DNA from: an alpha proteobacterium IMCC14465
GTDB lineage: Bacteria; Pseudomonadota; Alphaproteobacteria; RS24
Length of the DNA: 64,000 bases
Assembly: GCA_000293845.2 (NCBI GenBank)
Contig: ALYF01000006.1
Span: 1-64,000, forward strand
Direction of reading: 5' to 3'
Shown: positions 1 through 25,018 of the stretch, piece by piece
How the letters are laid out: each line of letters begins with the position of its first letter
Position numbering within the stretch: position 1 is the stretch's first letter
Made by a program: the position numbers and the translations under genes
Notes under the pieces: model-generated
What the model was told of the DNA's origin: nothing
The model's database searches: none
Seen by the model: the letters and a program-made list of their open reading frames with translations, nothing else

Positions 1-20
1 AACCCATCTCGGGTGCGCCA
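1..20 (+). tRNA. 3' end of a tRNA cut by the window edge
   Basis: The first 20 bases read as the end of a tRNA on the plus strand: last part of a T-loop, a T-stem strand (CATCT), acceptor strand CGGGTGC, discriminator G and encoded CCA. The acceptor strand is the same as in tRNA-Arg(CCG) at 3879-3955, but the T-arm differs, so it is a different gene. The isotype cannot be read because the anticodon lies outside the window. Confidence 0.6.
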
Positions 21-71
21 GATTCAAGTTTCAAGCACCGTGTTTCACGGCTCAAGCCATTGATCTTCAAG
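7..71. repeat. left arm of a 65-bp perfect inverted repeat
   Basis: Bases 7-71 are the exact reverse complement of 1276-1340. The outer 14 bases are the tRNA 3' end (TCTCGGGTGCGCCA); the inner 51 bases are downstream flank and include a short CCGTG-AAA-CACGG hairpin. The match stops at 6/1341 and at 72/1275. The two arms bracket the broken recombinase gene 93-1250. Confidence 0.95.
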
Positions 72-92
72 AATCTCGGAACTTGGGTCTTC

Positions 93-1250
93 CTAAATCA
101 CAATTTTTTGAAGCCACTTTTGCTTCACGACAAGGTCATACCCGTCACCATATGAGTGACCTATGCCAGAAGTGCTCCACCCCCCGATGGCATCAGAAAT
201 ATCTGATGGACACTCAACCGCTCGTAATCGATCACGCAAAGCATGCCGGAATGAATAAACCACACACCCGTCAGGAACTCTGGGCTTAAGCCATTTATTT
301 AGTGCCGCACTTGCTGAGTTGGCATTGCATTTAGACGCACTGGTGTAATTCGAGAAGGCGAATTGCGCTTCAGTCTGCATAATCTGTCCAGCCGCCCAAT
401 AACTTTTACCAATAAGTGGAACGAGCCTTTCGCTTGATGCGGTCTTAAGCTTCCGCCAAGGGTGCTTTTGGATAATCAAATGGGGTATTTCAGTATCAAG
501 CACGATATCTTCTTTTATTAACCCCAGTGCTTCTGAGAGGCGAAGGCCAGTATCGCTGATTAGAGCAAGTAGATGACGGTTTGGGTCATTCGTCGCTTCA
601 CATTCCGCCTGCAATATTTTGATTGTCTTTACAGGCATGGTTGGACGAGACTTTGACCTGTCATCGGCGGGGATAAATACTTTTGCGAATGGATTTGTGA
701 TTGGCAGTCCATGTTCTTGGATCGCCAAAGAGACAATAGATCGAATTGAAGCGAAGCACCTCTTCACTGAAGAAGAGGCAAGGCCTCTTTCAATCAAATG
801 GTCCCGAAAACTTGCCGCATCAGCAGACGTTAACTCACCAATCGAAGGATCACCAACGACAGCATAAAATTGTTCGATGTTACGCCGCGCGGTCCGCTCG
901 AACGCTTCGCCCTTACCATTGCCCTTAAGACGCAGGTAGAGGTCAAGAGCCTCAGATAGCGAGATTGACGTCTCACCGCTGGTTGGTCTCTCTAGCGTCA
1001 TCGAATGTTATGAGATTATCTCTTCGAGCTTCATGCCGTTCCAGAAGCTCTCTAGCTTTTCTGACAAAACAATTGCTGAAGCGATTGCCTTGCGACGCGA
1101 CTTCGTTTTAAGCGAAACGACAATCCGCTTTTTACCCAGTCGCTTTTGAAGTTCTTTTGGAATGCGCCGCGTGTAGTAGTAATGCACACCCCGCCGCCTG
1201 GTCAGGTATGTCCCATTTTGGTCCACCATCTGGTCTACCATTGAAACCAT
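93..1250 (-). pseudogene. tyrosine recombinase/integrase interrupted by one in-frame stop
   Basis: Two open segments, 1008-1250 (80 codons) and 93-1001 (302 codons), lie in the same frame and are separated by one TAA at 1010-1008 plus two sense codons. Read through, they give one phage-type integrase of about 385 aa. The N-terminal piece has the basic, Tyr-rich start typical of alphaproteobacterial integrases (TRRRGVHYYYTRRIPKEL). The rest holds a core-binding domain and the catalytic domain, with the first Arg in SDTGLRLSEAL, the Arg box as YSFRHAL (Tyr where His is usual), and a Tyr near the end (HSYGDGY). It is either a recently inactivated integrase, a stop that is read through, or a sequencing error. 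No attachment repeats in direct orientation were found around it; it sits inside inverted repeats. Confidence 0.8.
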
Positions 1251-1275
1251 GATTTATGCTCCTCAAACAAATATG

Positions 1276-1340
1276 CTTGAAGATCAATGGCTTGAGCCGT
1301 GAAACACGGTGCTTGAAACTTGAATCTGGCGCACCCGAGA
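1276..1340. repeat. right arm of the 65-bp perfect inverted repeat
   Basis: Exact reverse complement of 7-71. Its outer 14 bases overlap the tRNA-Arg 3' remnant that starts at 1327, so this arm joins the recombinase module to the attachment site of the neighbouring integrated element. Confidence 0.95.
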
Positions 1341-1374: not shown

Positions 1375-1493
1375 GGATTCACTGGTTTTTTCTTCAAAAG
1401 CACTGTTCTCACCACTGATTAAATCCCTGTGACGCTATGCTGTTGATGACTTCTGTGTCAATGCTGTGTCATCATATTTATTCTTTGCACCAC

Positions 1494-2024
1494 TCACCAC
1501 AGTTCTGGTTTGGATAATGCCGCAACACATTCAAAATTAATCGGCATATCTATAGTTGCATTTCTATCCAGCATCATACCTGTCCAACCGAATGGGTATT
1601 CCAATGGGTATGGTGGAACGAACAAGCGTCCAATCTCTTCATTGAATCCGAACTGCCCATAGTAATCAGGGTCACCATAAACCAATAGGACACCAACTCC
1701 CGCTTTGGTGAGTGTATCTATTCCATAATTGATGAGTTTTCTTCCAACACCTTGTTTTTGATGTTCTGTAGATACAGCAAGTGGCGCAAGAATGTATCCA
1801 GAGATACTCGCATCAGATTTCAAGAATATGGGACTGTAAGACACATATCCAATTATTTGATTATCAACCTCTGCAACTAATGACAAAATCTTGGGAGATG
1901 AGGTTTCAGTGGAGAGGTCAAATGCAAATTGACTAATTTCTTCATTTTCCTCATCGGAGAACGAAGTTTCAAGAACCTTCTGCACAGATATCAAATCTGC
2001 GTTTTGAAATAATCTGATGTCCAT
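1494..2024 (-). CDS. GNAT family N-acetyltransferase (YhbS-like)
   Basis: A 176-aa protein with the GNAT fold signature: the acetyl-CoA binding motif A reads LAPLAVSTEHQKQGVGRKLI (about residues 80-100; Q-x-x-G-x-G). It is followed by a YGDPDYYGQFGF segment common in YhbS-type acetyltransferases. The family transfers acetyl from acetyl-CoA to small amines or proteins; the substrate here is unknown. It is the main cargo gene of the tRNA-Arg element and lies last before the attL repeat. Length is normal for the family. Cargo acetyltransferases often modify an antibiotic or a host protein, but nothing in the sequence decides this. Confidence 0.85.
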   Translation of the reverse strand: MDIRLFQNADLISVQKVLETSFSDEENEEISQFAFDLSTETSSPKILSLVAEVDNQIIGYVSYSPIFLKSDASISGYILAPLAVSTEHQKQGVGRKLINYGIDTLTKAGVGVLLVYGDPDYYGQFGFNEEIGRLFVPPYPLEYPFGWTGMMLDRNATIDMPINFECVAALSKPELW

Positions 2025-2080
2025 AATATCCCCGAAAGTTCAGTCTTAATGATAACAAAAGATGGACTTTTTGTATTTTT

Positions 2081-2422
2081 CTATTTTCGTAAAAGGATAC
2101 CTATTTGTTTATTAGTTCTTTCATTAAGCAACTGACCACTCACAATAATCGCAGTCATTGCACCTAGTTGTTTTCTCAATGCAATATTGGCATCACACAT
2201 TTCAATAAGACCTTCTTGAAGTCTTTTTATTTGTTCTTCAGTGGTCTCATTACTTCTAGGTCTTAAAGTTTGTTTTGCGTTGGATAAGTTCTGTTCAACC
2301 TTCTTTCCTTCATTCCTGGCGCGCATAGCATAAGCAGTAGCGACACCTTTACGAAGGAGTCTGGATTCTTTGAGTTCAATTGGTTCATCTAAATCTTGTT
2401 TAAGTTCTTTATAGGTTTTCAT
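2081..2422 (-). CDS. small basic helical protein of unknown function in the element
   Basis: Start chosen at the ATG 2422-2420 because AGGAAG lies a few bases upstream; the frame is open further up but without a better signal. The 113-aa product starts MKTYKELKQDLDEP, is rich in Lys, Arg and Glu, and is predicted helical with a possible coiled coil in the middle (residues 60-90). The opening resembles N-termini seen in some marine phage proteins (MKTYKE... followed by a basic helix), which would fit phage origin, but this is a weak likeness. No catalytic motif or membrane segment is seen. It lies between the GNAT gene and the hairpin-rich spacer, on the same strand as the integrase. Confidence 0.6.
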   Translation of the reverse strand: MKTYKELKQDLDEPIELKESRLLRKGVATAYAMRARNEGKKVEQNLSNAKQTLRPRSNETTEEQIKRLQEGLIEMCDANIALRKQLGAMTAIIVSGQLLNERTNKQIGILLRK

Positions 2423-2801
2423 TTTTTCTTCCTGCGGTTTGTCTAGACACACTAACCCTTCCGAGGGGTTAGCATGTCTGACAAATACCTGCGTATATGT
2501 CTGAGACACATCCAATCAGAGAAACCTAACTCAATAGGTAGGGTGGGTAATCCGATATCCCTTTAGACTCCACTAGACTACGGTGACGATACAGAACCGA
2601 TTGGATGATTGTCTGTATCGTCAGAGGGTGATGTTTCCCTCGTCCTGTTGGTAATGTTTCAACACCCCATCCAACTTTGGTGTTTCATAATAAGAAGGTG
2701 CTACCTAACCAAGTTCCGAACCAGATAGGTTCTCAATGGGTCTGTATGCTCAATGTAAGGAATTCTCTTACTCTATTATATATACGAGTAAGACTCTCAA
2801 C
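2423..2801. other. 379-bp spacer with four stem-loops
   Basis: No convincing gene beyond the upstream extension of the 2081-2422 frame. It holds several separate inverted repeats: TGACGATACAGA 2584-2595 with 2612-2623 (12 bp perfect), AACACC 2661-2666 with 2679-2684, GAACC 2718-2722 with 2728-2732, and CTTACTC 2767-2773 with 2786-2792. The last lies just past the integrase stop codon and may end its transcript, though no clear T-run follows. The others could form a structured RNA, or mark protein-binding sites of the element. Confidence 0.6.
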
Positions 2802-3788
2802 TTATTGAAAAATAATATATTTTTCGGATATTTTTTGCGGCATGAGATGGGTATATCTAAACAATTGTCTGATGTCCTTATGCCCTGAAATCAAAGCAAC
2901 CTCAGGCACTGTCAGACCATGTTCGAAGAATCGTGATATCGCCTCATGGCGTAGGTCATGAAACCTTAAATCTTGGATGTCTGCGTTCTTTTTCACCCTT
3001 CTCCACGCAAGTTGCAGGCAATTTGCCGTAATGGGGAAAACGAACTCTGTTTTTTTCTCTAGATTTTTTAGAACCTCGAAAGCATTTCGGGTCAATGGAA
3101 CAGTGCGGTCATCACCATTCTTCGTATTGGTGAGTTTGGCAGTCTTTTTAGTTTCATCAATATCCGACCAACGCATTTTGAGTATCTCTGACCTACGCAT
3201 TCCCGTCTCAACTGCGAAAATAATGATTGGTGCAATGAGGGAGTTCTTTTGTTCGAGTGCGATAGTTAATAGTCTCTCAAATTCATCATTTTCGAGTCTG
3301 CGGGTGCGTGGCGTATATGTGGAGGGTAATTCTATGAACTTGATTGGATTATCTGTCAGACCAACTCCGAGGATGCGAATTCCATAGTCCAAAACCCGTT
3401 TCATAAGGGTCAATTCACCCCTGACGGTGCATTGTTTTACAATTTCCAATCTGTCATTGCGGTATTGTTCATAATGACGAGGGGTGAGGTGTGCAACCTT
3501 GACCTGACCAATCCATGAATTTGCAAAACGATTCAATCGATAAGTCTCGGTTTGATAACCTTTGTGAGTTGGGGTGACCTTATCCCGATATTTCTCAATT
3601 AAATCTTTGAATTTGAGGTTTGGGGAAGATTTGGAAGTGTGCAGTGGCGCAGAACGAATGGCGGTTTCGGTCTCTCTGCACCAATCCAGTGCATCCGATT
3701 TTTTCTCAAAAGTTTTTGTGAAACTTCTCCATCCAGCAATCCTGACTTGAGCATTCCACTTTGTCCCTCTTCGTCTCACACAACCCAT
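2802..3788 (-). CDS. intact tyrosine recombinase (integrase) of the tRNA-Arg element
   Basis: A 328-aa site-specific recombinase. Start set at ATG 3788, with AAAGG upstream, in preference to the GTG at 3803. Residues 1-55 form an arm-binding region (MGCVRRRGTKWNAQVR), then a core-binding domain to about 150, then the catalytic domain. Catalytic residues are visible: Arg in VETGMRRSEILKMRW, the HDLRH box (His-x-x-Arg), His in ISGHKDI, and the nucleophile Tyr in LFRYTHL close to the C-terminus. It should integrate and excise the element at the 48-bp tRNA-Arg repeats. It lies 90 bp from the tRNA gene and reads away from it. It has little similarity by eye to the broken integrase at 93-1250, so the two arrived separately. 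Confidence 0.92.
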   Translation of the reverse strand: MGCVRRRGTKWNAQVRIAGWRSFTKTFEKKSDALDWCRETETAIRSAPLHTSKSSPNLKFKDLIEKYRDKVTPTHKGYQTETYRLNRFANSWIGQVKVAHLTPRHYEQYRNDRLEIVKQCTVRGELTLMKRVLDYGIRILGVGLTDNPIKFIELPSTYTPRTRRLENDEFERLLTIALEQKNSLIAPIIIFAVETGMRRSEILKMRWSDIDETKKTAKLTNTKNGDDRTVPLTRNAFEVLKNLEKKTEFVFPITANCLQLAWRRVKKNADIQDLRFHDLRHEAISRFFEHGLTVPEVALISGHKDIRQLFRYTHLMPQKISEKYIIFQ

Positions 3789-3878
3789 GACTTGACCTTT
3801 CACTGTGTCAAATCAGTGTCAAAACTGCGTCATCTCTGAAGAATACTGGAAAATTCACTGCGTAACCCGCAGAAACCT

Positions 3879-3955
<77 letters not shown>

Positions 3956-12545: not shown

Positions 12546-13396
12546 ACGTCAATAACCACTCCCGATTTATGAATTTCTGAAATCGCCTGCATTGCGGGCG
12601 ATTTTTCTTTTGTCACACCATTTATTTCTACCACAGGGACTGCGCCTGTCAGGCTGTTGCAGATGAAAATATGCGCGGCTGCCTGAACGCGGGCTAATGT
12701 CAGACTTTCTTCTCTTATCGGCGCACCATCCAGATTACCGCGTGTGAGTATTTCACCGCGTATAATGCCATCTAGCGTCCCGTCACTTAGAAGCGGGGTT
12801 CGCCATTGCTTGTTTTCAAATATAAAAATATTTGCCGCGGCGGCACAGGTCACATGACCGACTTCGTTTAACAGTAAGGCTTCATCCGCACCTGCTGCCA
12901 CAGCCTCTTTGCGGGCGAGGATATTATCCATATAAGAAAGCGACTTAATGCGGCTCGTTAGGTTAGCGGATGGGCGGCATAGGGTGCTGATATGTAAGGT
13001 GACGGATTTTGGCGGCGGCGGGCAGGGGGCGGCTGTTAAGAGCCAGTTTGATTGCGCGTCTGGGCTGATAGCTAGCCCGCGCCCACCATTACCCCGACTA
13101 ACACCACGACTAACGGAGAGCCGCAGCACAAAGGCTTGCGCCGCGTCAGTCTTATTATTTGAAACCATATGATGGATGAGGTTTTGGCCTGCCGCATGAA
13201 TATCATGGGCGGTATAGGGTGTGTTTATCTCCAGCAGGTCAAGCGCTGTGGTCAGACGTTTCCAATGGTTTTCAAAAAACGCGACGCCCGCGCTGGTTGC
13301 ATAAAGCGTTTCAAAAACACCGTCACCAAGCAGAAAGCCTCTATCTGATGGCGAAACTGTGCCGTTATCTTCGAAATTACCATTCTGCCAGATCAT
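12542..13396 (-). CDS. pabC: aminodeoxychorismate lyase-like class IV aminotransferase
   Basis: 284 aa, fold-type IV PLP enzyme. The PLP Lys is in [19 protein letters not shown] (about residue 150), followed by [23 protein letters not shown] and [11 protein letters not shown], typical of the ADC lyase/BCAT/D-amino acid family. Its place 3 bases after pabA, which follows pabB, supports 4-amino-4-deoxychorismate lyase making p-aminobenzoate for folate. A branched-chain aminotransferase role is possible by sequence but less likely by context. Opening [20 protein letters not shown] fits the family. Confidence 0.87.
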
Positions 13397-13399
13397 GTT

Positions 13400-14017
13400 T
13401 TATCCAGCCTTACTCATTTCAGGCATTTCATCTGGCGTAAAACGACGATGTGGGATGCCCGCACAAGTGAAAAAATTAGAGAGCAGAAGATGCCCGTTTT
13501 GCGTCAAAATACTTTCGGGGTGGAATTGATAGCCGTAAACTTTATCGGCATCATTTGCTACTGCCATCACAACCTCATCAAGAGAATGTGCAATTTCAGT
13601 CAGTCCTTCAGGTGTCCGGGTGACGCAAAGCGCATGGTAGCGCGCGGCTTCAAATGGCATAGCGAGCGTGTCAAACAAAGCATGATGATTGTGATAAATG
13701 TCGTCAGATACACCATGGCGCGGCTGTGGGGCGCGGTCGACTGTGCCGCCATAAGCTACCGCAATCGCCTGATGCCCAAGACACACACCCAAAATAGGTA
13801 TTTTGCCACGAAAATGGCGGACAAGTTCTATACTGATACCAGCTTTTTCAGGCGTGGCGGGGCCGGGGGAAATGATGATGGCTTGTGGGGCTAGCTGCTC
13901 TATAGTTTCTAAATCAACCGCATCATGACGCAATACCGCGCGGTCAAGGCCTAGCTCTCCGATATAACGTGCGAGTGTATGCACAAAGCTGTCATAATTA
14001 TCAATCAGTAAAATCAT
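13400..14017 (-). CDS. pabA: aminodeoxychorismate synthase glutamine amidotransferase (component II)
   Basis: 205 aa class I glutamine amidotransferase: MILLIDNYDSFVHTLARY, PGPATPEKAG, the nucleophile Cys in LGVCLGHQAIA (about residue 79) and the His-Glu pair in YQFHPESILT (about 170). It gives ammonia from glutamine to PabB. The same protein can serve anthranilate synthase in organisms with one copy. Start overlaps the pabB stop by 4 bases, so translation is coupled. Confidence 0.92.
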   Translation of the reverse strand: MILLIDNYDSFVHTLARYIGELGLDRAVLRHDAVDLETIEQLAPQAIIISPGPATPEKAGISIELVRHFRGKIPILGVCLGHQAIAVAYGGTVDRAPQPRHGVSDDIYHNHHALFDTLAMPFEAARYHALCVTRTPEGLTEIAHSLDEVVMAVANDADKVYGYQFHPESILTQNGHLLLSNFFTCAGIPHRRFTPDEMPEMSKAG

Positions 14018-15471
14018 GTTGCTATTTTCTTGCCCGCTTGCACCTTTTCAGGCGCACCAATAGCATTCATTAGCCCTCGGGCTTTGTCCAGCGTTTCCAG
14101 ATATTCCGCTTCGGGTTGACTATCGGCGACAATACCTCCGCCAACTTGAAAGGTGATTTTTTTGTCTCGAATAATAGCGGTGCGGATGAGTATGTTCATA
14201 TCCATGGCACCGTCAAAACCGATATAACCGAGTGCGCCCGTATAAGGCCCACGGCAATTATTTTCCAGTTCAGCAATAATCTCCATGGCGCGGATTTTTG
14301 GCGCGCCGGATATCGAGCCGCCGGGGAAACAGGCCTCCAGCACATCGGGCGGGGTTAAACCATTGCGGAGCTTGCCGGAGATAATAGACACAAGATGATG
14401 CACCGTCTCAAAGGACTCGGCCTGACACAGGGCGGAGACTTTCATACTGCCGTCCTCGCATATTCGAGATAAATCATTGCGTAAGAGATCAACAATCATC
14501 ACATTTTCAGCCTTGTCCTTTAGACTCGCCTCAAGCTCTGCCAGTAATGCTTTATCAATTATAGGGTCTTCACTTCGCGGGCGCGTGCCTTTTATCGGGC
14601 GGGTCTCTACATTTTGCTGATTACATTCCAGAAAGCGCTCCGGTGAGGCTGACGCCAACACCCAGCTCCCGAAATTGGCATAGGCGGCGAAAGGGCCCGG
14701 CGAAATGTGCCGCAGACGCGTGTAATAGCTCAGGGGCGTGTCATCTGAGGCGATGTGACCGCTAAATCTGTGAGATAAATTCGCCTGAAAAATATCGCCG
14801 GCATGGATGTAATCAATGACCTTTTGCACCCGTGATTTAAAAACAGAGGCCTCTATATCGGCAGTTATGTTGCCATCTTTTTTGCCGGATTCTGGAAAAT
14901 ATGCGGCTGGAATATTGGGCAGGCCATGCAAGGTCTTTTTAAGATTTTCAATTTTGAGACGGGCGAGATTACTGCGTTCTGCGGCGCCTTGTGCTGGAAA
15001 ACCTGTTGAGAAGACAAAACAGCGATGCGTCTGGTGGTCAAAGCCAAGCACGAGGTCATAAAAGCCAACGGCCAAATCGGGAAGTTGTGTGTCGTCAATG
15101 GCATAGGGTGGTTGATGCGGTGGGAGTGTTTCAAGGCTCTGTGCCAAATCATAACCAAACAGCCCAGCTACGCCGCCTTTAAAGGGGGGGGCGTCAGGCC
15201 AATGGGTTTTTAGCCCTATCCAGTCTTCCTGCCATTGATAAAGTTTTGTTTTGAGTTGAGCGAAGGGGTTATCGGACGGGTTTTTAAGGGCAAAGGTCTC
15301 GAATGGGTCATGCATTATAAAACTGTAACGCCCTGCAGGGTGTTGTGTGTCGGCGGAGTCCAGCCATATGGCATAGGGCTTTTCGGCAATCGCGGAGAAA
15401 TAAGCCAGCGGGTCAACCCAGTGGAGTTCTTCCGCAATCGCCCCACTTGCCATGATATGCGTGTCGATCAT
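14014..15471 (-). CDS. pabB: aminodeoxychorismate synthase component I
   Basis: 485 aa chorismate-binding enzyme. The C-terminal two-thirds carries the conserved ETRPIKGTRPRS with the Lys that marks PabB (TrpE has Ala there), then DLLRNDLSRICEDGSM, FPGGSISGAPKIRAMEII and GALGYIGFDGAMDMNILIRT. It aminates chorismate to 4-amino-4-deoxychorismate with ammonia from PabA. First gene of a pabB-pabA-pabC operon that contains all three steps from chorismate to p-aminobenzoate. The N-terminal region is variable and the exact start is less certain. Confidence 0.92.
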   Translation of the reverse strand: MIDTHIMASGAIAEELHWVDPLAYFSAIAEKPYAIWLDSADTQHPAGRYSFIMHDPFETFALKNPSDNPFAQLKTKLYQWQEDWIGLKTHWPDAPPFKGGVAGLFGYDLAQSLETLPPHQPPYAIDDTQLPDLAVGFYDLVLGFDHQTHRCFVFSTGFPAQGAAERSNLARLKIENLKKTLHGLPNIPAAYFPESGKKDGNITADIEASVFKSRVQKVIDYIHAGDIFQANLSHRFSGHIASDDTPLSYYTRLRHISPGPFAAYANFGSWVLASASPERFLECNQQNVETRPIKGTRPRSEDPIIDKALLAELEASLKDKAENVMIVDLLRNDLSRICEDGSMKVSALCQAESFETVHHLVSIISGKLRNGLTPPDVLEACFPGGSISGAPKIRAMEIIAELENNCRGPYTGALGYIGFDGAMDMNILIRTAIIRDKKITFQVGGGIVADSQPEAEYLETLDKARGLMNAIGAPEKVQAGKKIAT

Positions 15472-15515
15472 TATGTCCCGATTATGCTGTTAGTTACTGG
15501 CATGACGCTGAACTC

Positions 15516-16289
15516 TCAATAATTGTCTTTAAGCGTTCGAATCTGGGCAAAGACATCGACCAAATTCGCGCCGGTCATACCCAGATGCTTTTGAATGGAC
15601 GCATCTCCTGCCCGCAGAAACGGGTTCGTCGCAAGCTCGGTTGCTATAGAAGCCGGGACGGTAGGCTTATCTGCGGCTCTGAGTGTTTCAATTTCTGCAA
15701 CTCGGTCAGCGAGGTTTTGATTATCCGGATCTATTGTCACGGCGAAACGTGCATTGGCCTCGGTATATTCATGGGCGCAATATATGAGGGTCTCGGGTGG
15801 CAGATTGGTGATTTTCTTGAGTGAGGCCCACATTTGTTGCGCCGTACCTTCAAACAGACGCCCGCAGCCGAGCATGAATAATGTATCGCCGACAAAAGCA
15901 CAGCCATTCTCGCAAAAATAATAGGCGATATGGCCTTTCGTATGCCCGCCAACATTGAGGATGCGTATTTGGGCGTCGCCCAGTGTTATCATATCGCTAT
16001 CGTCGAGTGCTTCATCCAATCCAGGGATTTTGTCTGCATCTCCAGCAGGCCCGTATATTTTACATCCCGTTTTTTCTTTAAGTTCCAGATTACCGCCCAC
16101 ATGGTCATAATGATGATGCGTGTTGTAAATGGCGGTAAGGTTCCAGTTTCTGTCTGCTAAGGCCTGAAGCAAAGGCGCAGCATCTGGCGTGTCGATGCTG
16201 GCGGTTTCGCCACTGGCGGCATGATGCACCAGATAGCCGTAATTATCATTCAGACAGGGGATTTGGATAATGTCTATTTCTTGCATCAC
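15516..16289 (-). CDS. gloB: hydroxyacylglutathione hydrolase (glyoxalase II)
   Basis: 257 aa metallo-beta-lactamase-fold thioesterase. Metal motif NTHHHYDHVGGN (THxHxDH) near residue 56, then GGHTKGHIAYYF, VGDTLFMLGCGRLFEG and IYCAHEYTEANARFA. It hydrolyses S-lactoylglutathione to lactate and glutathione in methylglyoxal detoxification. The C-terminal HAGH domain has TNPFLRAGD. It is divergent from the methyltransferase gene at 16361, a common neighbour in alphaproteobacteria. Confidence 0.95.
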   Translation of the reverse strand: MMQEIDIIQIPCLNDNYGYLVHHAASGETASIDTPDAAPLLQALADRNWNLTAIYNTHHHYDHVGGNLELKEKTGCKIYGPAGDADKIPGLDEALDDSDMITLGDAQIRILNVGGHTKGHIAYYFCENGCAFVGDTLFMLGCGRLFEGTAQQMWASLKKITNLPPETLIYCAHEYTEANARFAVTIDPDNQNLADRVAEIETLRAADKPTVPASIATELATNPFLRAGDASIQKHLGMTGANLVDVFAQIRTLKDNY

Positions 16290-16360
16290 ATTTTAACCTT
16301 CTTTGAGTTAATTTAGCCTGTCTATAAGTAATTTGCCATTTGTTCTGCTAAGTTATTTTT

Positions 16361-17095
16361 ATGCGCTTTGATATTCTGGATTTGAAAGAATTTTACGACG
16401 GGCAAATCGGGCAGCTTGCGCTTGAATTATTGTCTGAGCGACTTGTTGACAGATGGCCGTCTCTGAAAGACCAAAGGCTGTGTAGCATTGGCTATGGCCT
16501 GCCTTATATTGAACGCAACTGGCCCGACGATAACGCCACTGCTTTAATGCCAGCCATTATGGGCGTTGTGCCATGGCCTGCGGGTAAGAAAAACAAGTCT
16601 GCACTGGTTAATGAAGTGCATCTGCCGCTGGCGGATAATTCTGTCGATAATGTTCTGATTATTCATGCGCTTGAAGTGACATATGACCCTGAAACCATGA
16701 TGCATGAATTATGGCGCGTACTTGTGCCGGGCGGTCGTGTGTTGATTGTCGTGCCGTCGCGAAGTGGTATCTGGGCGCGCCGAGACATCACGCCATGGGG
16801 GAGTGGTCGTCCCTTCAGCCGCCGTCAGTTGCGGCATTTATTGCGCGATGCAGGTTTTTCGCCCATGGACTGGTCGGCATGTCTGGCAGCGCCCCCTACA
16901 CGTTGGGCGCCTATGAGACGCATTGCAAAAATCGTGGAACGTCCGATGAGGCGTGTTTTGCCGCAGCTATGTGGGTTAAATATTGTGGAGGCTCAGAAGC
17001 TGGTATATGCCCCGGTTAATCGTACGAGAAGTCGATCATTTGTGCTGAAGCCGGTATCGAGACCGGCGTTTATTCCGCGAATGGATAAGTTTTAA
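16361..17095 (+). CDS. class I SAM-dependent methyltransferase, substrate unknown
   Basis: 244 aa methyltransferase of the type found beside gloB in alphaproteobacteria. The SAM motif I is weak (LCSIGYGLPYIE near residue 43), but the later segment VDNVLIIHALEVTYDPETMMHELWRVLVPGGRVLIVVPSR (in parts) is the standard motif II-III pattern of class I enzymes. The tail is basic. Substrate not known. It converges with metW with only 2 bases between stops. Confidence 0.82.
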   Translation: MRFDILDLKEFYDGQIGQLALELLSERLVDRWPSLKDQRLCSIGYGLPYIERNWPDDNATALMPAIMGVVPWPAGKKNKSALVNEVHLPLADNSVDNVLIIHALEVTYDPETMMHELWRVLVPGGRVLIVVPSRSGIWARRDITPWGSGRPFSRRQLRHLLRDAGFSPMDWSACLAAPPTRWAPMRRIAKIVERPMRRVLPQLCGLNIVEAQKLVYAPVNRTRSRSFVLKPVSRPAFIPRMDKF

Positions 17096-17097
17096 AT

Positions 17098-17745
17098 TTA
17101 CATCTCTTTTTGTGAGGAGACGACAAAGAGTGCTTGCTCGGCGATTAAGTTCATTAAAGGGCCTGCAGAGCTTTCCACATGTTTGACTTTATCATTCGAC
17201 AGAATGAAGCTTTTTTCGATTTGCAAACCCAACTCATCGCAAAGACCAATAAAATCCTCAATCGTGCAGAGATGAATATTCGGCGTATTATACCATTGTG
17301 CATCCAGTGTGGATGTGACCGGCATACGGCCTTTAAACATGAGATAAAACCGCACCCGCCAATTGGCAAAATTCGGGAAAGACACAATCAGCTTTTTTCC
17401 TATGCGTGCCAATTCTTGAAGCACCGAGTCCGGGCGCTGCGTGGCCTGTAAGGTTTGACTTAAAATAGCATAGTCAAAACCATTATCGGGGAAATGCTTG
17501 AGGTCTCTATCAGCGTCGCCTTGCACGACTGACAGACCGCGCGCCACACAAGCATTCACGCCAGCCTGAGAGATTTCAACACCTCTGCCATCAATATTTT
17601 TTTCGGATTTCAGCAGGTCAAGTAAATCACCTTCGCCACAACCAATATCCAGAACCCGGGCTCCACTTGGAATAAGGTCGCAAATAAGCTGTAAATCCTT
17701 ACGCTCTGACACGCTTAATGAATGGATTGAACGGGTTTCACTCAT
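17098..17745 (-). CDS. metW: methionine biosynthesis protein MetW
   Basis: 215 aa methyltransferase-fold protein: [17 protein letters not shown] (residues 33-49), [36 protein letters not shown]. MetW is needed with MetX for homoserine O-acyltransfer in many proteobacteria. Its ATG overlaps the metX stop by 4 bases, the classic metX-metW pair. Confidence 0.94.
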
Positions 17746-18929
17746 GTCAGACCTCGCATGTCTGACTCGCCTGTCACGCCCCGGTCTTTAGCGACTGACC
17801 TTAAAAAACCGTTCAGGGTTTTAAACATTTCCGGTTCATCGAGCAGAAACGCATCATGCCCTTTATCGCTTTCAATCTCGACAAAACTGACATTCGCGCC
17901 AGCGGCATTGAGAGCGCGGACCACATGGATGCTCTCGGATGTTGGAAACAGCCAGTCACTGGTGAAAGACACAACGCAGAAGCGTGTATCTGAATTTGTG
18001 AAAGCCGCCGCCAGCTTGCCGTCATGCTCGGCGGCAATATCGAAATAATCCATGGCGCGGGTTATGTAGAGATAGCTATTGGCATCAAAGCGTTCCACAA
18101 AAGTAAAACCCTGATGACGCAAATAGCTCTCTATTTGGAAATCTGCTTCAAAGCCATAGCTCAGGGCGTCACGGTCTTGAAGATTACGTCCAAATTTCCG
18201 CGTTAAGGCAGTTTCCGACAAATAGGTGATATGTGCCGCCATGCGTGCCACCGCCAACCCTTTGCGGGGCTGGGTTTTTTCTGCGTGATAATTACCGCCA
18301 TGCCAGTCAATATCCGCCATAATTGCCTGACGGCCGACCTCGTGAAAGGCGATATTTTGCGCTGAATGACGCGCAGAACCGGCAATAGGAATCGCACTGA
18401 AAACTTTTTCGGGGAATGAATTAGCCCATTCCAGCACCTGCATCCCGCCCATAGATCCGCCAATCACGGTTAGAAGCGAGTCAATGCCCAGCGCGTCGAG
18501 CAATTTGGCTTGTGCGCGCACCATATCCGTGATGGTGATGACCGGAAAATCCAACCCATATGGTTTTCCGGTTGCCGGATTGATGCTGGCAGGACCTGTT
18601 GAGCCACTGCACCCGCCAATAACATTACTGCAAATGATAAAATATTTTTCTGGATCGAGTGGTTTCCCGGGCCCAATCATGGTGTTCCACCAACCAGGGC
18701 GCTCGGTCATTGGGTTTTCACCCGCAGCGAATTGATCGCCGGTCAATGCGTGACAAATGAGAATCGTGTTGGATTTATCCTTGTTCAGCTTGCCCCAGCT
18801 GCAATAGGCCACAGTAAAGGGTTGCAAGCTTTCGCCGCTGACCAATTGCAGGGGAGAATCAAAAACATGAACTTTGCTTTCGCCCGCAATAGGCTCTTTA
18901 CCTGACTTATCTAGCTGTATTTCCTGCAT
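17742..18929 (-). CDS. metX: homoserine O-acyltransferase MetX
   Basis: 395 aa alpha/beta hydrolase. Motifs: the nucleophile Ser in [15 protein letters not shown] (about residue 160), [18 protein letters not shown], Asp in [11 protein letters not shown] and His in [14 protein letters not shown]. It acylates homoserine (acetyl or succinyl; the specificity cannot be read safely) as the first step of methionine synthesis. The leader was checked for a SAM-II riboswitch and none was recognised. An inverted CGTAAAT...ATTTACG pair (about 18938-18994) in the divergent region toward chorismate mutase could be an operator. Confidence 0.95.
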
Positions 18930-19037
18930 AATTATCCGTAAATGACGCGAACTGTTAAAAATGTCAATCTATGCTTTGATTTTAAGTATTTACGCTATTA
19001 TGACTACCATTCTTAGGTACATGTTGGATAGAACAAG

Positions 19038-19829
19038 ATGACTGAAGAGACTGAACAGAAAATGCTCGGCTTAGAAGATATTCGTGAGCAGATAGACGAA
19101 ACAGATAGAGCTATTTTGGAATTGTTGGCGCAACGCTCGCAATTAGTGTCTTGTGTTGCCGAGGTTAAGGCTCAATCCGGTGATAGCCGGATATTACGTC
19201 CTGCCCGTGAAATCGTCCAAATGAGGCATTTTCTGACTTGGTTTAAAGAACGGGGGCTGGCTATGCCGGTTTCCGGTTTTTCGGCTATTTGGCGCGAAAT
19301 TATCGCGGCTTCGGTTAGTCAACAGACGCCGCTCAAGGTGATGCATATGTCCGACACGCTCACCACAGCACGCGAGAGGTTTGGTAATGCTGCTGATTAT
19401 GTCGAGGTCAATCATCCCGACGATGCGCTGGGCAAGCTTGATGCGCATGCCAATAGGATTGCGGTTTTGCCGTTTAAAAATTCAGATTGGTGGCAAAGCC
19501 TGCCTGAAGGTATGAAGATTTTTGGCGCTTTGCCATATTTAAGCCCGCTGAGCAAAGGGGATGTTCAATCGCTTTGTGTCGGTTGTATCGCTATTGAACC
19601 ATCTGGTGAGGATGTGACTTTGTTGAGTTGCCCGAAAGAAGATGGGCCAGAAAATGACTCGGCAGATGACTTGGCTGAAAATAAAGACGCGCATATTTTG
19701 GCCAGTTCAGACACACATCACCTCATTATGGTTGATGGGTTTATGAATACCGATAGGATTGGTGATGTGGTAGGCAGTTTTGGAAGTCTTGAAATTATGG
19801 ATGCTCTTTTGGTCGGAGAGAAAAGCTGA
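19038..19829 (+). CDS. chorismate mutase (AroQ) with a C-terminal extension
   Basis: 263 aa. Residues 8-95 are an AroQ helical chorismate mutase (LEDIREQIDETDRAILELLAQR, later RPAREIVQMRH), which turns chorismate into prephenate. The remaining 170 residues are not a recognisable ACT or prephenate dehydratase domain; segments such as NRIAVLPFKNSDWWQSL are shared with other alphaproteobacterial forms as far as I recall. First gene of a three-gene unit; its stop overlaps the hisC start by 1 base. Confidence 0.9.
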   Translation: MTEETEQKMLGLEDIREQIDETDRAILELLAQRSQLVSCVAEVKAQSGDSRILRPAREIVQMRHFLTWFKERGLAMPVSGFSAIWREIIAASVSQQTPLKVMHMSDTLTTARERFGNAADYVEVNHPDDALGKLDAHANRIAVLPFKNSDWWQSLPEGMKIFGALPYLSPLSKGDVQSLCVGCIAIEPSGEDVTLLSCPKEDGPENDSADDLAENKDAHILASSDTHHLIMVDGFMNTDRIGDVVGSFGSLEIMDALLVGEKS

Positions 19830-20926
19830 TGTCAGGTCCGCAACCTAAAAACGGGATTATGGACTTGCCACCTTATGTTGGTGGTAAAGAGTCTCTGCCC
19901 GGACAGGAAAAAATATTTAAGCTATCGGCGAATGAAAACCCCCTTGGTGCCAGTCCCAAGGCGCTGGAAGCCTATCGCATGGCTGGAGAGAATCTGGAGC
20001 TATATCCCGACGGGCATAGCGTGGCTCTGCGCGAGGCGCTTGCTAAGGCGAACGGTTTGGATGTGAATAAAATTGTTTGCGGTTTTGGTTCTGATGAGCT
20101 TCTGCAGATTATGGCGACTGCCTACTTACAACCCGGCGATGAGGCTATTCATACCGAACATGGTTTTCTGGTCTATAAGCTGGCAAGTCAGGCAACAGGT
20201 GCACGGCCTGTAAGTGTGGCCGAAACCAATCTGACGGCAGATGTGGATGCTATTTTGGCTGCGGTGACCGAGAAGACAAAAATTGTTTTTCTGGCAAATC
20301 CCAATAACCCGACTGGTACAATGATTTCGGCTTCTGAAGTCCGTCGTTTGCATGCCGGTTTACAGGATAATATATTGCTGGTGCTGGATGGCGCTTATGC
20401 AGAATATGTCGGTACGGCTGATTATGAGGACGGATTTGCGTTAGTTGAAGAAACACAAAATGTTGTGACAACGCGCACCTTTTCTAAAATATACGGTCTG
20501 GCGGCGCTTCGATTGGGGTGGGCTTATTGCCCTGCACCGATTGCGGCTGTGGTCAATCGTTTGCGTGGACCGTTTAATGTTTCCACACCGGCTCAGCTGG
20601 CAGGCATTGCCGCGATAGAAGACCAAGCGCATGTGCAAGCGTCCATTGCGCATAATAATGAATGGCGAGACCGGCTCTTCCAGCAAATAAGCGGTGCGGG
20701 GTTTGATGTTTTACCAAGCCAAGCCAATTTCTTGCTGATTAAATTTGACCCTGAAAGCAGTTGGAGTGCGGCTAAAGCTGAACAAAAACTCAATGAGCGC
20801 GGGCTTATTTTGCGCGGGCTGACAGCCTATGGCTTGCCGAATGCGCTTCGCCTGACAATTGGCACGGCTGAAGCCAATATGCTGGTTGCAGAGGTGTTTC
20901 AAGAAATGGCTGAAAATCATGGATAA
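19829..20926 (+). CDS. hisC: histidinol-phosphate/aromatic aminotransferase
   Basis: 365 aa fold-type I PLP enzyme: KLSANENPLGASPKALEA, FLANPNNPTGTMIS, DGAYAEYV, and PLP Lys in TRTFSKIYGLAALRLGWA (about residue 216). It transaminates imidazole-acetol phosphate in histidine synthesis, and the setting between chorismate mutase and TyrA suggests it also acts on aromatic keto acids or prephenate. Start coupled by a 1-base overlap; the end overlaps tyrA by 8 bases. Confidence 0.94.
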   Translation: MSGPQPKNGIMDLPPYVGGKESLPGQEKIFKLSANENPLGASPKALEAYRMAGENLELYPDGHSVALREALAKANGLDVNKIVCGFGSDELLQIMATAYLQPGDEAIHTEHGFLVYKLASQATGARPVSVAETNLTADVDAILAAVTEKTKIVFLANPNNPTGTMISASEVRRLHAGLQDNILLVLDGAYAEYVGTADYEDGFALVEETQNVVTTRTFSKIYGLAALRLGWAYCPAPIAAVVNRLRGPFNVSTPAQLAGIAAIEDQAHVQASIAHNNEWRDRLFQQISGAGFDVLPSQANFLLIKFDPESSWSAAKAEQKLNERGLILRGLTAYGLPNALRLTIGTAEANMLVAEVFQEMAENHG

Positions 20927-21854
20927 ACCGCATATCGCTCTCATCGGCATGGGTCTTATCGGGTCATCTATCGGGCATGCGCTCAAGCGTGGCGATTTGG
21001 CGGCGCAGATTACCGGTTATGCCCGCAGTTCACAAACGCGTCAGAAAGCTCAAAATATTGGCTTTGTTGACCACGTCGCGGACACTCTGCAAGAGGCCGT
21101 TACGGGGGCAGATATTGTATTTCTGAATGTGCCGGTGGGGATGATTGCCGATATTGTCAAAGACATGGCGGCGTCACTAAAGCAGGGCGCGATAATCACG
21201 GATGTTGGCTCGGTTAAAAAATCTGTCATGGATGCTGTTAATGCTCATTTGCCGGAACATGCTGTTTTTGTGCCGGCGCACCCGATTGCTGGAACTGAGC
21301 TTTCCGGTCCGGAGGCGGGGTTTGCTGAACTATTTGATAATCGCTGGTGTATTCTGACGCCTGATGCCGATACGGATAAGCAAGCTGTGGCAACTATTTC
21401 GGATTTATGGCAGGCCATGGGGTCGGATGTGGAAATCATGGATGCTGACCACCACGACCTTGTGCTGGCGATTACGAGCCACGTGCCGCATTTAATTGCG
21501 TTTAATATTGTCGGTACGGCGGCAGATTTGGAAGCCGTGACGCAAAGCGAAGTGATTAAATATAGCGCGGGTGGGTTTAGAGATTTTACCCGTATCGCGG
21601 CATCTGACCCTGTTATGTGGCGGGATGTGTTTATGAATAATGGTGAGGCAGTGTTAGAAATGCTCGCCCGTTTCAGTGAAGATTTGACGAGTCTACAACG
21701 TGCTATCCGATGGAAAGATGGTGAGGCGCTTGAAAAACTCTTTTCACACACGCGCGATATCAGACGTAGCATTGTCGAAGCGGGGCAGGACACAAATGAC
21801 GCGAATTTTGGTCGTGGCGAGTCTCCACATAAATCTGGCCATAAATCCGATTGA
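20919..21854 (+). CDS. tyrA: prephenate/arogenate dehydrogenase
   Basis: 311 aa. Start placed at ATG 20919 (MDKPHIALIGMGLIGSSIG), so the nucleotide-binding GxGxxG lies at residue 10 as usual; a longer frame from 20859 would run deep into hisC. Other marks are PAHPIAGTELSGPEAG and SHVPHLIAFNIV. It oxidises prephenate or arogenate with NAD(P), leading to tyrosine. Together with the two upstream genes it covers chorismate to tyrosine. Confidence 0.94.
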   Translation: MDKPHIALIGMGLIGSSIGHALKRGDLAAQITGYARSSQTRQKAQNIGFVDHVADTLQEAVTGADIVFLNVPVGMIADIVKDMAASLKQGAIITDVGSVKKSVMDAVNAHLPEHAVFVPAHPIAGTELSGPEAGFAELFDNRWCILTPDADTDKQAVATISDLWQAMGSDVEIMDADHHDLVLAITSHVPHLIAFNIVGTAADLEAVTQSEVIKYSAGGFRDFTRIAASDPVMWRDVFMNNGEAVLEMLARFSEDLTSLQRAIRWKDGEALEKLFSHTRDIRRSIVEAGQDTNDANFGRGESPHKSGHKSD

Positions 21855-21869
21855 CGTTTAAAGTTTTAC

Positions 21870-22844
21870 TTAAAGCTTAGGTGCGGGGCCTATATCAAGT
21901 GGCCCGAAAAATACACGCCCTTGCTTAAAAGCAAGCGTAAGAGGGAAGGTGTCAGTTTCTGACGTTCCTTTTGTGATGGACCCTGTTTTAAGCTGAAGCG
22001 CGAAAGAGAGGATGGCAACTTGATCCGCGGTTAAAAGTCCATTGGTCTGCAAGATGCGCAAGACAGATGTCATATTCTCGAAAGTCAGATTCAGCGTGCC
22101 ATCAAGATAGCCTTGCTCATTTCGCCCTAATTGGCCGTTACCCTGAATACCGAGGCGTTCCTCGGCGGATAGGTTGATATCCAGCTTCATAGCATCGAGA
22201 GTGATACTGTTCCTATTTGCAGGGAGTCTGGCTTCCATAATTGTCTTATTCAGACTTAGAATTTGTTGATTATCTGTCTCCGTGACAGCGAGATTATTGG
22301 CATCAAATAAAAGACGCGTCTGACGCGCTTCAATAGGCAGGCTGTAAAATTGTATATGCTCGGATGTGATGTTCATCCCTTCTGCAAAAGCAGGGCGCAC
22401 GGCGAAGCGGGGTTTTTGCAAATCCACAGAAATACGGGCATCGGCAAAATAATCTTCTCCCTCTTTGGTCATCACATGGCTGGCTTGTAGAGCCTCTCCT
22501 GTGAGGGTTAGACGGTCGCCAGACTGGCCATCAAATTGTATGCCCCCCTCTGCCCAGATGATTGTGTGATTAAAGTTATAAAACATGCGCGTGGCAGTCA
22601 GGCTGTCACCGGAGAGGTTTCCTTGGGGCAAACGAAAGACATAGTCAGCCATAATTATACGATACTGGCTGGGGAAGCCGCCGACAGATAGTGAGCTGAA
22701 ATTAATATCTGGGTTTTCGTGCAGTGATTTTTTAATCTGGGCAGCCCCCATAAACCAAAATCCGGTGGCCGTGAGCGCCAGCGTCAGGAGCGCGATATAA
22801 GGCCAGAGTAAAGCGCGTTTTCTTTTTGTGGTTATTTTGGTCAT
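21870..22844 (-). CDS. DUF2125-type membrane-anchored protein
   Basis: 324 aa: one N-terminal membrane segment (residues 10-32) and a beta-rich exported domain (FSSLSVGGFPSQYRI, YSLPIEARQTRLLFD). This fits the DUF2125 family of alphaproteobacteria, often found near tyrA; function unknown. Its ATG overlaps the stop of the DUF218 gene by 1 base (TAATG), so the two are co-translated. Confidence 0.8.
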   Translation of the reverse strand: MTKITTKRKRALLWPYIALLTLALTATGFWFMGAAQIKKSLHENPDINFSSLSVGGFPSQYRIIMADYVFRLPQGNLSGDSLTATRMFYNFNHTIIWAEGGIQFDGQSGDRLTLTGEALQASHVMTKEGEDYFADARISVDLQKPRFAVRPAFAEGMNITSEHIQFYSLPIEARQTRLLFDANNLAVTETDNQQILSLNKTIMEARLPANRNSITLDAMKLDINLSAEERLGIQGNGQLGRNEQGYLDGTLNLTFENMTSVLRILQTNGLLTADQVAILSFALQLKTGSITKGTSETDTFPLTLAFKQGRVFFGPLDIGPAPKL

Positions 22845-23473
22845 TATGAGAGCGACATATGATCCCCTGTCAGGTCGAACAGGGAGAGGAGATAGCGGAC
22901 ATATTCACCCAGTAAAAGGGTCAGAGTACCAGGATAGCGCCACCATGATTGAATCTCCACCCCCCGCGCGTTAACAGGATAGGGATGAATCAAAACATTG
23001 GGAATGACCCTGCGAAGCTCTATCAGACTGCGCGGAATATGGTGAGTGCTGGTTACCATAATAATCGACCGATAGCCATGGACACGCACCCACATAGCCG
23101 TTTCTCCAGCATTGCCGACTGTATTTGTAGCGCGGTAGTCTAGGTCAACACAGCATGCGATTTTAGCCGCGTCAAATTCGGCGAAGCTTAAAATCTTATC
23201 CATATCGGCAGATTTATGAACCCCTGATACAAGCGCCCGTTTAGCACGCCCTTCGCCAAGAAGGGCCAGCCCTTGACGAATACGTTCATCAGACATGCCT
23301 GTCAAAATGACAATGCCGTCGGCGGTTGGTTTTTCAGGCGTGTTTATCGCATCATAGCGCCGCCCCTGAGCGAATAGTAAAAAGCTGATAATGAATAAAA
23401 CCGACAAGCCAATGGCGATATATAAAAGGGCGCTGAGCCAGATTTTGTTCTGGCGGGGAGGGTCAAGTTTCAT
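22844..23473 (-). CDS. YdcF/ElyC-like DUF218 membrane protein
   Basis: 209 aa with an N-terminal membrane helix (residues 12-32) and a DUF218 domain: GIVILTGMSDERIRQGLALL, RALVSGVHKSADMDKI, NTVGNAGETAMWVR, IIMVTSTHHIPRSLIELRRV. DUF218 proteins act in the envelope; E. coli ElyC supports peptidoglycan precursor supply. Next to ftsE-ftsX and co-translated with the DUF2125 gene, in keeping with an envelope role. Exact function not known. Confidence 0.87.
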   Translation of the reverse strand: MKLDPPRQNKIWLSALLYIAIGLSVLFIISFLLFAQGRRYDAINTPEKPTADGIVILTGMSDERIRQGLALLGEGRAKRALVSGVHKSADMDKILSFAEFDAAKIACCVDLDYRATNTVGNAGETAMWVRVHGYRSIIMVTSTHHIPRSLIELRRVIPNVLIHPYPVNARGVEIQSWWRYPGTLTLLLGEYVRYLLSLFDLTGDHMSLS

Positions 23474-23489
23474 ATCGGCACCTCAAGAC

Positions 23490-24338
23490 TCACAGTGCTT
23501 TAGCCAGTGTTCGGATAACGAAGTTTCTGATAATCAGCCACGTCATCAAAATGGAAAGAACGGGAACGCTTAATAGCAGAAGATAGAATTGCATATCTTC
23601 CATATCTGTCATCAGGGTGAATAGCAGATGAAAAATACTCGCCGCGGCGACATAGCCAATGGCGCAGGAAAGCAAAGAGAGGGTCAGGAATTGTCTCTCA
23701 AATTGACGCGAAATAAATTTATCTCGCGCGCCAATGAGGTGCAGCACCTCGACAGTTTGCTTATTTGTTCCTAAGCCTGCGCGCGTGGCAAAAATAATCA
23801 CGGTTGCTGTTGCGATGGTGACGAGTATCAATATCAAACTGGCAAGCACTCTGAGGGTTTGCACGCCGCGCTCAAGATTTTGCCGCCAACGCCCATGCGT
23901 GTCCAGTTTTGCGCCGGGTGCGACCGCGCTTAATTCAATGCGCAGCCCGTTTTCATTAAATCTCTGTTCTTTATTAAGAGAGACATCAAGCATGACGGGA
24001 ATTGGCAAATCGGCGGTTACATTGCCTGTGCCGAGCCATGGCTCCAGCAGGCCAATCAGCTTTTCTTCAGGAATAATCTCATAGGTCTTAATGCCACGGG
24101 TTCTTTTCAGCACGCGCTCAACGGCTTGTAATTGGTCACGCGCCGTCAGATTTTCCGTATCTGTGATTTGTATGGTGACGGCGCCGGTGGCTTGTGTGAG
24201 CCAGTTATGGGCGGCTTTATTGACAGATAAAACCGCACCCAGTGCTAGGCACGCTAGAAAACACATCGTTGCGGTGACCGCGCCAAGCGCAGGTCCGGCA
24301 ACTGAATTTCGAGGTAATATTTGGGAATTGCCGGCCAT
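23490..24338 (-). CDS. ftsX: cell division protein FtsX
   Basis: 282 aa. Start set at ATG 24338 because it overlaps the ftsE stop by one base (TAATG); the longer frame to 24410 lies inside ftsE. Four membrane segments: one near residues 20-42, three in the C-terminal half (about 165-190, 215-240, 250-272), with a periplasmic domain between. With FtsE it forms the ABC complex that controls cell-wall hydrolases at the septum. Confidence 0.92.
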   Translation of the reverse strand: MAGNSQILPRNSVAGPALGAVTATMCFLACLALGAVLSVNKAAHNWLTQATGAVTIQITDTENLTARDQLQAVERVLKRTRGIKTYEIIPEEKLIGLLEPWLGTGNVTADLPIPVMLDVSLNKEQRFNENGLRIELSAVAPGAKLDTHGRWRQNLERGVQTLRVLASLILILVTIATATVIIFATRAGLGTNKQTVEVLHLIGARDKFISRQFERQFLTLSLLSCAIGYVAAASIFHLLFTLMTDMEDMQFYLLLLSVPVLSILMTWLIIRNFVIRTLAKAL

Positions 24339-25018
24339 TAATATTCCCCATAGGTCGGGACAAGACTGCCTTGCTCCAAATGCAGGCGAGGATAGGGGGA
24401 GCCTTCCCATAATTGTTTGTCATGTGTCGCAATCAGGATGGTTGTGCCTTGTTTGTTTAATTCAGCAAAGAGGCGCATGAGCCGCATGCCGATTTCCGTA
24501 TCGACATTGCCTGTGGGTTCATCAGCGATAATCACATTAGGACGCCCGACAACGGCACGCGCAATCGCGGCACGTTGTTGTTCCCCACCTGACAAGGTTG
24601 TCGGAAACGCATTAATGCGGTCGCCAAGGCCAACCCAGTTCATCAGTTCCAGAATATTACTGCGATATTGCGTTTCCTTGATGTTGCAGACCCGTAAGGG
24701 GAGTGACACATTTTCGTAAATGGTTAAATGGTCAAGCAGACGAAATTCCTGAAAGACCACGCCGATACGGCGGCGAATTTCGGGTAATGCCGCGCGTGGC
24801 AGGCGGGCAGAGTCTTGGTTAAACAGAAAGACTTTGCCACCGCTGGGTTTGCCGGCGAGGAAAATCAGTTTGAGCAAGGATGTTTTACCTGCGCCAGATG
24901 AGCCGGTAAGAAAGTGAAACGATCCGGGTTTGAGTTCAAAATTTATGTCCTGCAAAACATCCGTATTGTTATCGTAACGCAGAGATACATTTTCAAACCG
25001 GATCAAACCTGCCTCCAC
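24338..25018 (-). CDS. ftsE: cell division ATP-binding protein FtsE
   Basis: 226 aa ABC ATPase: Walker A GSSGAGKTSLLK (residues 38-49), Q-loop FQEFRLLDHLTIYENV, signature LSGGEQQRAAIARA, Walker B NVIIADEPTGNVD and switch His in LIATHDKQLW. Drives FtsX. First of ftsE-ftsX-DUF218-DUF2125, all on one strand. Confidence 0.95.
   Translation of the reverse strand: MEAGLIRFENVSLRYDNNTDVLQDINFELKPGSFHFLTGSSGAGKTSLLKLIFLAGKPSGGKVFLFNQDSARLPRAALPEIRRRIGVVFQEFRLLDHLTIYENVSLPLRVCNIKETQYRSNILELMNWVGLGDRINAFPTTLSGGEQQRAAIARAVVGRPNVIIADEPTGNVDTEIGMRLMRLFAELNKQGTTILIATHDKQLWEGSPYPRLHLEQGSLVPTYGEY

Follow-up and report, generated by a model that had tools for sequence, protein, structure and literature searches.

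At most testable loci of one clade of tyrosine recombinases, inverted P' arms enclose the integrase gene (int), and at seven closed loci the cargo is enclosed by inverted P arms. This architecture itself is well supported. We read the inverted repeat at the left end of the window (the whole stretch of DNA that was analysed, 64,000 nucleotides in length) as the P' half of a second attP, which the element would carry in inverted orientation. It is probable that the integrase recombines both attP sites, in the manner of the yeast 2-micron plasmid, and that the inner site also serves as a landing site. We infer that the paired attPs may drive inversion or amplification.

The inverted repeat and the integrase gene of the window

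The arms at positions 7-74 and 1273-1340 make up an inverted repeat of 68 nt that has a single mismatch (99% complementary) and a spacer of 1198 nt. It contains the exact 65-bp inverted repeat around an integrase gene (7-71 and 1276-1340) that was reported in the initial annotation and is confirmed here. The last 14 nt of tRNA-Arg(CCG), TCTCGGGTGCGCCA, are present in both arms, as had also been stated. The features of this region are the following:

1-74, + strand: site C, inverted attP-like, inverted repeat with 1273-1340; 1-10 P-side flank AACCCATCTC, 7-20 core (tRNA-Arg 3' end), 21-74 P' arm
96-1250, - strand: DUF6538 and tyrosine-recombinase integrase gene, interrupted by an in-frame TAA
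1219-1240, - strand: doubled GGTAGACC/GGTGGACC motif at the beginning of int, candidate binding site of the arm type
1273-1327, - strand: P' arm of site D (attL), adjoining the tRNA fragment, inverted repeat with 20-74
1327-1374, - strand: displaced 48-nt 3' fragment of tRNA-Arg(CCG), att core, 100% direct repeat of 3879-3926
3879-3955, - strand: intact tRNA-Arg(CCG), the target gene (ARAGORN)

Only the right one of the two arms borders tRNA sequence, namely the displaced 48-nt 3' fragment. This arm, D, is an attL, in which the tRNA-Arg 3' fragment is joined to the P' arm of the element; the same arm follows tRNA-Leu or tRNA-Arg in relatives, where the joined tRNAs are whole. The left arm, C, is a reversed copy of attP (P flank, core and P' arm), located ~20-25 bp past int. 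Its outer flank, AACCCATCTC, matches the attP flank of relatives and not the tRNA T-arm AAATCCTCTC. The earlier suggestion of two tRNA ends placed head to head was therefore abandoned, the left arm being a copy of the element's attP with a flank that is not tRNA.

The proposal that the repeat encloses an integrase gene held with respect to the protein family, but had to be corrected with respect to the integrity of the gene. The R-K-H-R-W/H-Y signature of tyrosine recombinases was found, with the Phage_integrase domain and the conserved R, K, HxxR, W and Y in the relatives, but the reading frame of the window copy is broken at 1008-1010 by an in-frame TAA, in place of which the nearest relative, intact here, has CAA. 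Because of this TAA the window copy has probably lost its autonomy. The doubled GGTAGACC/GGTGGACC motif at the beginning of int is retained in int-less relatives and is repeated on the P side.

The 2.5 kb at 1375-3878 constitute a separate element at the same tRNA-Arg, with 48-nt direct repeats on both sides, its own Phage_integrase gene (2802-3803) and a GNAT gene. It appears to have been inserted between tRNA-Arg and the integrase element under study, since 1327-1374 is a perfect direct 48-nt copy of the 3' part of the tRNA.

Base 1 of the window is the first base of its contig, one of 16 in a 1.92-Mb genome, and nothing is readable beyond site C; the P arm and the cargo of the element fall outside the contig, and its attR was looked for in its own genome assembly and was not found. 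An assembly artefact at the contig end might be suspected, as the left arm occupies the first bases of the contig, but it is hardly conceivable: the identical junction with the same spacing occurs in another MAG (G002, locus L010), and a finished genome as well as single-contig genomes have the same architecture. For the family, this explanation was rejected on account of the finished genome. The contigs of L022, L025, L026 and L191, like that of the window, stop within int or shortly past the second arm, as expected if such repeats break assemblies.

Distribution of the inverted arms and their identity

Of 28 loci of one integrase clade that could be tested, 24 have inverted arms around int; a locus counted as testable if at least ~1.5 kb, or site C itself, was present downstream on the contig. 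The arms are 48-113 nt in length and 82-100% identical within a locus, and they are found next to tRNAs for Arg, Leu, Gly, Phe, Thr or SeC. The loci include the finished megaplasmid of Ruegeria sp. TM1040 (arms of 85 bp, 100%) and the single-contig genomes G404 and G238. Two of the four exceptions (L009 and L024), which lack arms, belong to a tRNA-Leu(GAG) lineage of the window's own family; L101 has a 17-nt repeat only, and L100 has the core only, yet with a 383-bp inverted P arm. Since the same kind of repeat recurs at related integrases, including those in finished genomes, a chance origin of the repeat in the window can be excluded. The initial view that inverted recombination sites flank a tyrosine recombinase and that the element is not a simple direct-repeat island proved right.

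In controls with an adjacent tRNA or tmRNA and identical processing, such arms were present at 0 of 16 Arm-DNA-bind_3 integrases and at 0 of 17 other DUF6538 integrases. In the IQ-TREE phylogeny, the short (~385-aa) DUF6538 integrases form one clade (support 99/97), which is distributed over several families of Alphaproteobacteria. No close relatives were found in phages or, by protein or pattern, in viral contigs; when viral contigs were scanned with a profile, one more locus was obtained, which has an 84-bp inverted repeat.

Within a locus, the identity of the P' arms has a median of 100% over 50 nt, versus a median of 27% between loci, which is the chance level (a few close relatives reach 72-94%). 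The layout is thus old and the identity of the arms young, indicating that the arm copies have been homogenised, in line with the earlier suggestion that they are kept alike by recombination.

At all 26 loci with an intact adjacent tRNA the start of int is the tRNA-proximal end, and no flipped int segment was found. This orientation would fit integration via the attP beside the int start, where the doubled GGTAGACC-type motif lies. It also bears on the initially proposed on/off switch, in which D x C recombination would turn int of the 1.2-kb core on or off in the chromosome. The sites on either side of int are indeed inverted and have the core and the P' arm in identical form, as a switch would have it, but the uniform orientation goes against it, as does the finding that in many elements the doubled motif is present at the int-start attP (D) only and C is devoid of it. 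We consider such a switch very unlikely.

The cargo segment, attR and int-less relatives

At seven closed loci, the sequence beyond C is repeated in inverted orientation at the far end of the cargo, over 197-1148 bp and with 97-100% identity:

TM1040: 1148 bp, 100%
G404: 394, 197 and 320 bp
G238: 383, 291 and 304 bp

At two further closed loci, L093 and L097, no convincing P repeat was found within ~48 kb. In TM1040, the far P copy ends in the tRNA-Phe core, direct relative to the tRNA, and is thus the attR; at L098 of G238, the far P copy likewise ends in a direct tRNA core. For the window, the corresponding position lies beyond the contig. The P repeats of the closed genomes and the attR together give the element as tRNA.core-P' / int / P'.core.P (inverted attP) / cargo / P.core, and the integrated order would accordingly run from the tRNA 3' end and core through P' arm, int, inverted attP (P' arm, core, P arm) and cargo to the P arm and core of attR. 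The 1.2 kb around int are one segment of a larger element; in closed genomes, a cargo segment enclosed by an inverted repeat of its own comes next.

The cargo of TM1040 includes a type I restriction system, that of L098 an AEP primase/DUF5906 protein (primase/helicase) and, by eye, a sugar-transport-like operon, and that of L099, again by eye, a DNA methyltransferase-like gene with associated genes. The 1148-bp inverted P repeat of TM1040 (L209, 29102-30249 and 39398-40545) holds a whole BRO-family gene, present in two copies under one protein accession. L100 of G238 contains a 931-bp inverted repeat (100%; 13271-14201 and 16303-17233 in reverse-complement coordinates), with the copies 2.1 kb apart. 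In the 60-kb joined region of L098, two attR-like P.core copies (22834 and 41751) follow one int, suggesting tandem or composite islands. A colinear block of ~9.5 kb and about eight genes, most with 72-84% amino acid identity, has opposite orientations relative to int in L094 of G404 (12982-23437) and L101 of G327 (14394-24922). It was set aside as evidence of cargo inversion, the G327 copy being not clearly within an element.

Among close relatives, G002 carries a unit like that of the window at tRNA-Leu(CAG), with 86% nucleotide identity and also with the 1198-nt spacing, in the order tRNA, arm D, intact int and inverted arm C (arms D and C 92.6% identical). Its C arm carries the acceptor end of tRNA-Leu and that of the window the acceptor end of tRNA-Arg; both arms thus match the tRNA at which the unit stands. 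The sequence AACCCATCTC is found past C in the two units, is unlike both tRNAs and occurs again upstream of the core at further attP-like sites in this family. The place of this flank can be seen in the canonical int-less element of G026 (three contigs), which has tRNA-Leu.core, P' arm and int-start remnant at one end and P arm, flank and core at the other, the core copies being direct (attL ... attR). Site C is therefore a copy of attP turned round, and the initial alternative, an inverted duplication of a tRNA with its downstream flank, did not hold, as the duplicated unit in the relatives is the attP of the element and not host flank.

Int-less elements are common in the family and are sited at tRNA-Leu or tRNA-Arg (L060 6606-10858, L063, L064, L065, L067, L068 and L073, as well as L008 7390-7670 on contig C5 of the window's own genome). 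They keep the P' arm and the first ~60-70 nt of int, including the doubled GGTAGACC motif, as if they were mobilised in trans. At site C of G002, direct copies of 103 nt enclose a 4.95-kb segment that has a P' arm and an int-start remnant of its own; this is the arrangement to be expected if an int-less relative had inserted into C. A further int-less P'-start unit is found beyond C in G020, inverted in the same way (a possible second insertion). The segment from tRNA to C is 95.5% alike in G002 and G020, compared with 67% for the chromosomal flank, and the cargo beyond C is unrelated; the int segment and the cargo thus have separate histories, which suggests that the two segments exchange independently.

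These insertions, and the frequency of int-less elements in the family, could also mean that the inverted attP beside int serves mainly for capture, with int-less elements (a P' arm with a remnant of the int start) accumulating there as on an integron-like platform. We regard this as improbable, because there is one clear case only and most closed elements have, between their inverted P arms, a single unique cargo instead of an array.

In the reading that we favour, that of a second attP used by the integrase, attL x attR excision would yield a circle with two attPs in inverted orientation, which, as deduced from integrated copies, would divide it into one segment with int and another with the cargo. 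The integrase could then recombine the two attPs and flip int relative to the cargo, as Flp does at FRT in the 2-micron plasmid. Recombination between the copies would keep the arms identical, and the inner attP would double as a landing site for int-less relatives. Double rolling-circle replication of the 2-micron kind would explain why the repeats have been retained as well as why they are identical. Only tentatively do we propose such a counterpart of the yeast plasmid in bacteria, in which inversion between the attPs would lead to double rolling-circle replication and amplification before transfer, with the repeats kept identical; this strikes us as doubtful.

Alternatively, the layout may be a passive relic, an ancient inverted attP duplication fixed in the clade, in which the inner site has no role and the arms are kept identical solely by homologous recombination or replication template switching between them. 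With 0.2-1.15 kb, the P arms have a length sufficient for homologous recombination, and the lack of a flipped int among the loci examined is consistent with a relic. On the other hand, P' arms of just 65-97 bp are likewise kept identical, most members of a deep clade retain the layout, and the inner site of G002 took an insertion with att-type boundaries. Such a relic is unlikely, though not far-fetched.

Comparison with known systems

Integrons have a cassette array with attC sites beside intI. The elements described here resemble them in having, beside the integrase gene, a recombination site that received inserted DNA, but this site duplicates the element's own attP in inverted orientation, and the insertions at C comprise one in G002 and a possible one in G020, with no arrays. 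RIT elements (recombinase in trio) have three tyrosine recombinase genes between inverted repeats. The likeness lies in tyrosine recombinase genes between such repeats, but here there is one integrase, together with tRNA 3' ends; three adjacent tyrosine recombinase genes were not present in the window and its relatives, in which each unit has one integrase. Tycheposons and other int-bearing tRNA islands are satellite-like elements of marine bacteria, and they share with the present elements the tRNA anchoring, the tyrosine recombinase, the satellite-like character and the marine hosts. We know of no inverted attP pair in Tycheposons or similar marine tRNA islands. Tycheposons and marine int-bearing tRNA islands are named in PMC10872708.

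Within the one library of non-subscription papers that was searched, no account of paired inverted attPs in integrative elements was found, and DUF6538 was not mentioned. The closest likeness in integration is to tRNA-targeting tyrosine-integrase islands, both of the Islander type (PMC4383910) and the Pseudomonas I23/I44/I55 islands (PMC12595487), in which the integrase adjoins the tRNA, the core is at the tRNA 3' end, attL is accompanied by a direct attR (found here in TM1040 and at L098 of G238), and the cargo is of the defence type. The difference is a second inverted attP between int and the cargo, so that both attP halves occur twice, as inverted repeats. The elements thus behave as tRNA-targeting integrative elements in which one defining feature, the single attP, fails, 24 of the 28 loci having a second, inverted one. 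One attP and direct repeats at the ends are the rule by which integrative elements are found and bounded, and a clade with an inverted attP breaks this rule. A second inverted attP in a widespread clade also helps to explain why contigs stop beside these integrases.

The nearest model for the mechanism is the yeast 2-micron plasmid, in which 599-bp inverted repeats carry the FRT sites. Inversion by Flp produces two isomers of the plasmid and can initiate double rolling-circle replication, a process that is recombinogenic in its own right (PMC3147054, PMC7710549). There, as predicted here, inverted sites within identical inverted repeats cut a circle into two segments, one of which carries the gene of the tyrosine recombinase (PMC3147054); for the present elements, the two sites within repeats would follow from integrated copies in closed genomes. 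Unlike the plasmid, these elements are integrative and bacterial and have asymmetric tRNA-based att sites. The clade thereby offers a bacterial system for testing the 2-micron amplification model.
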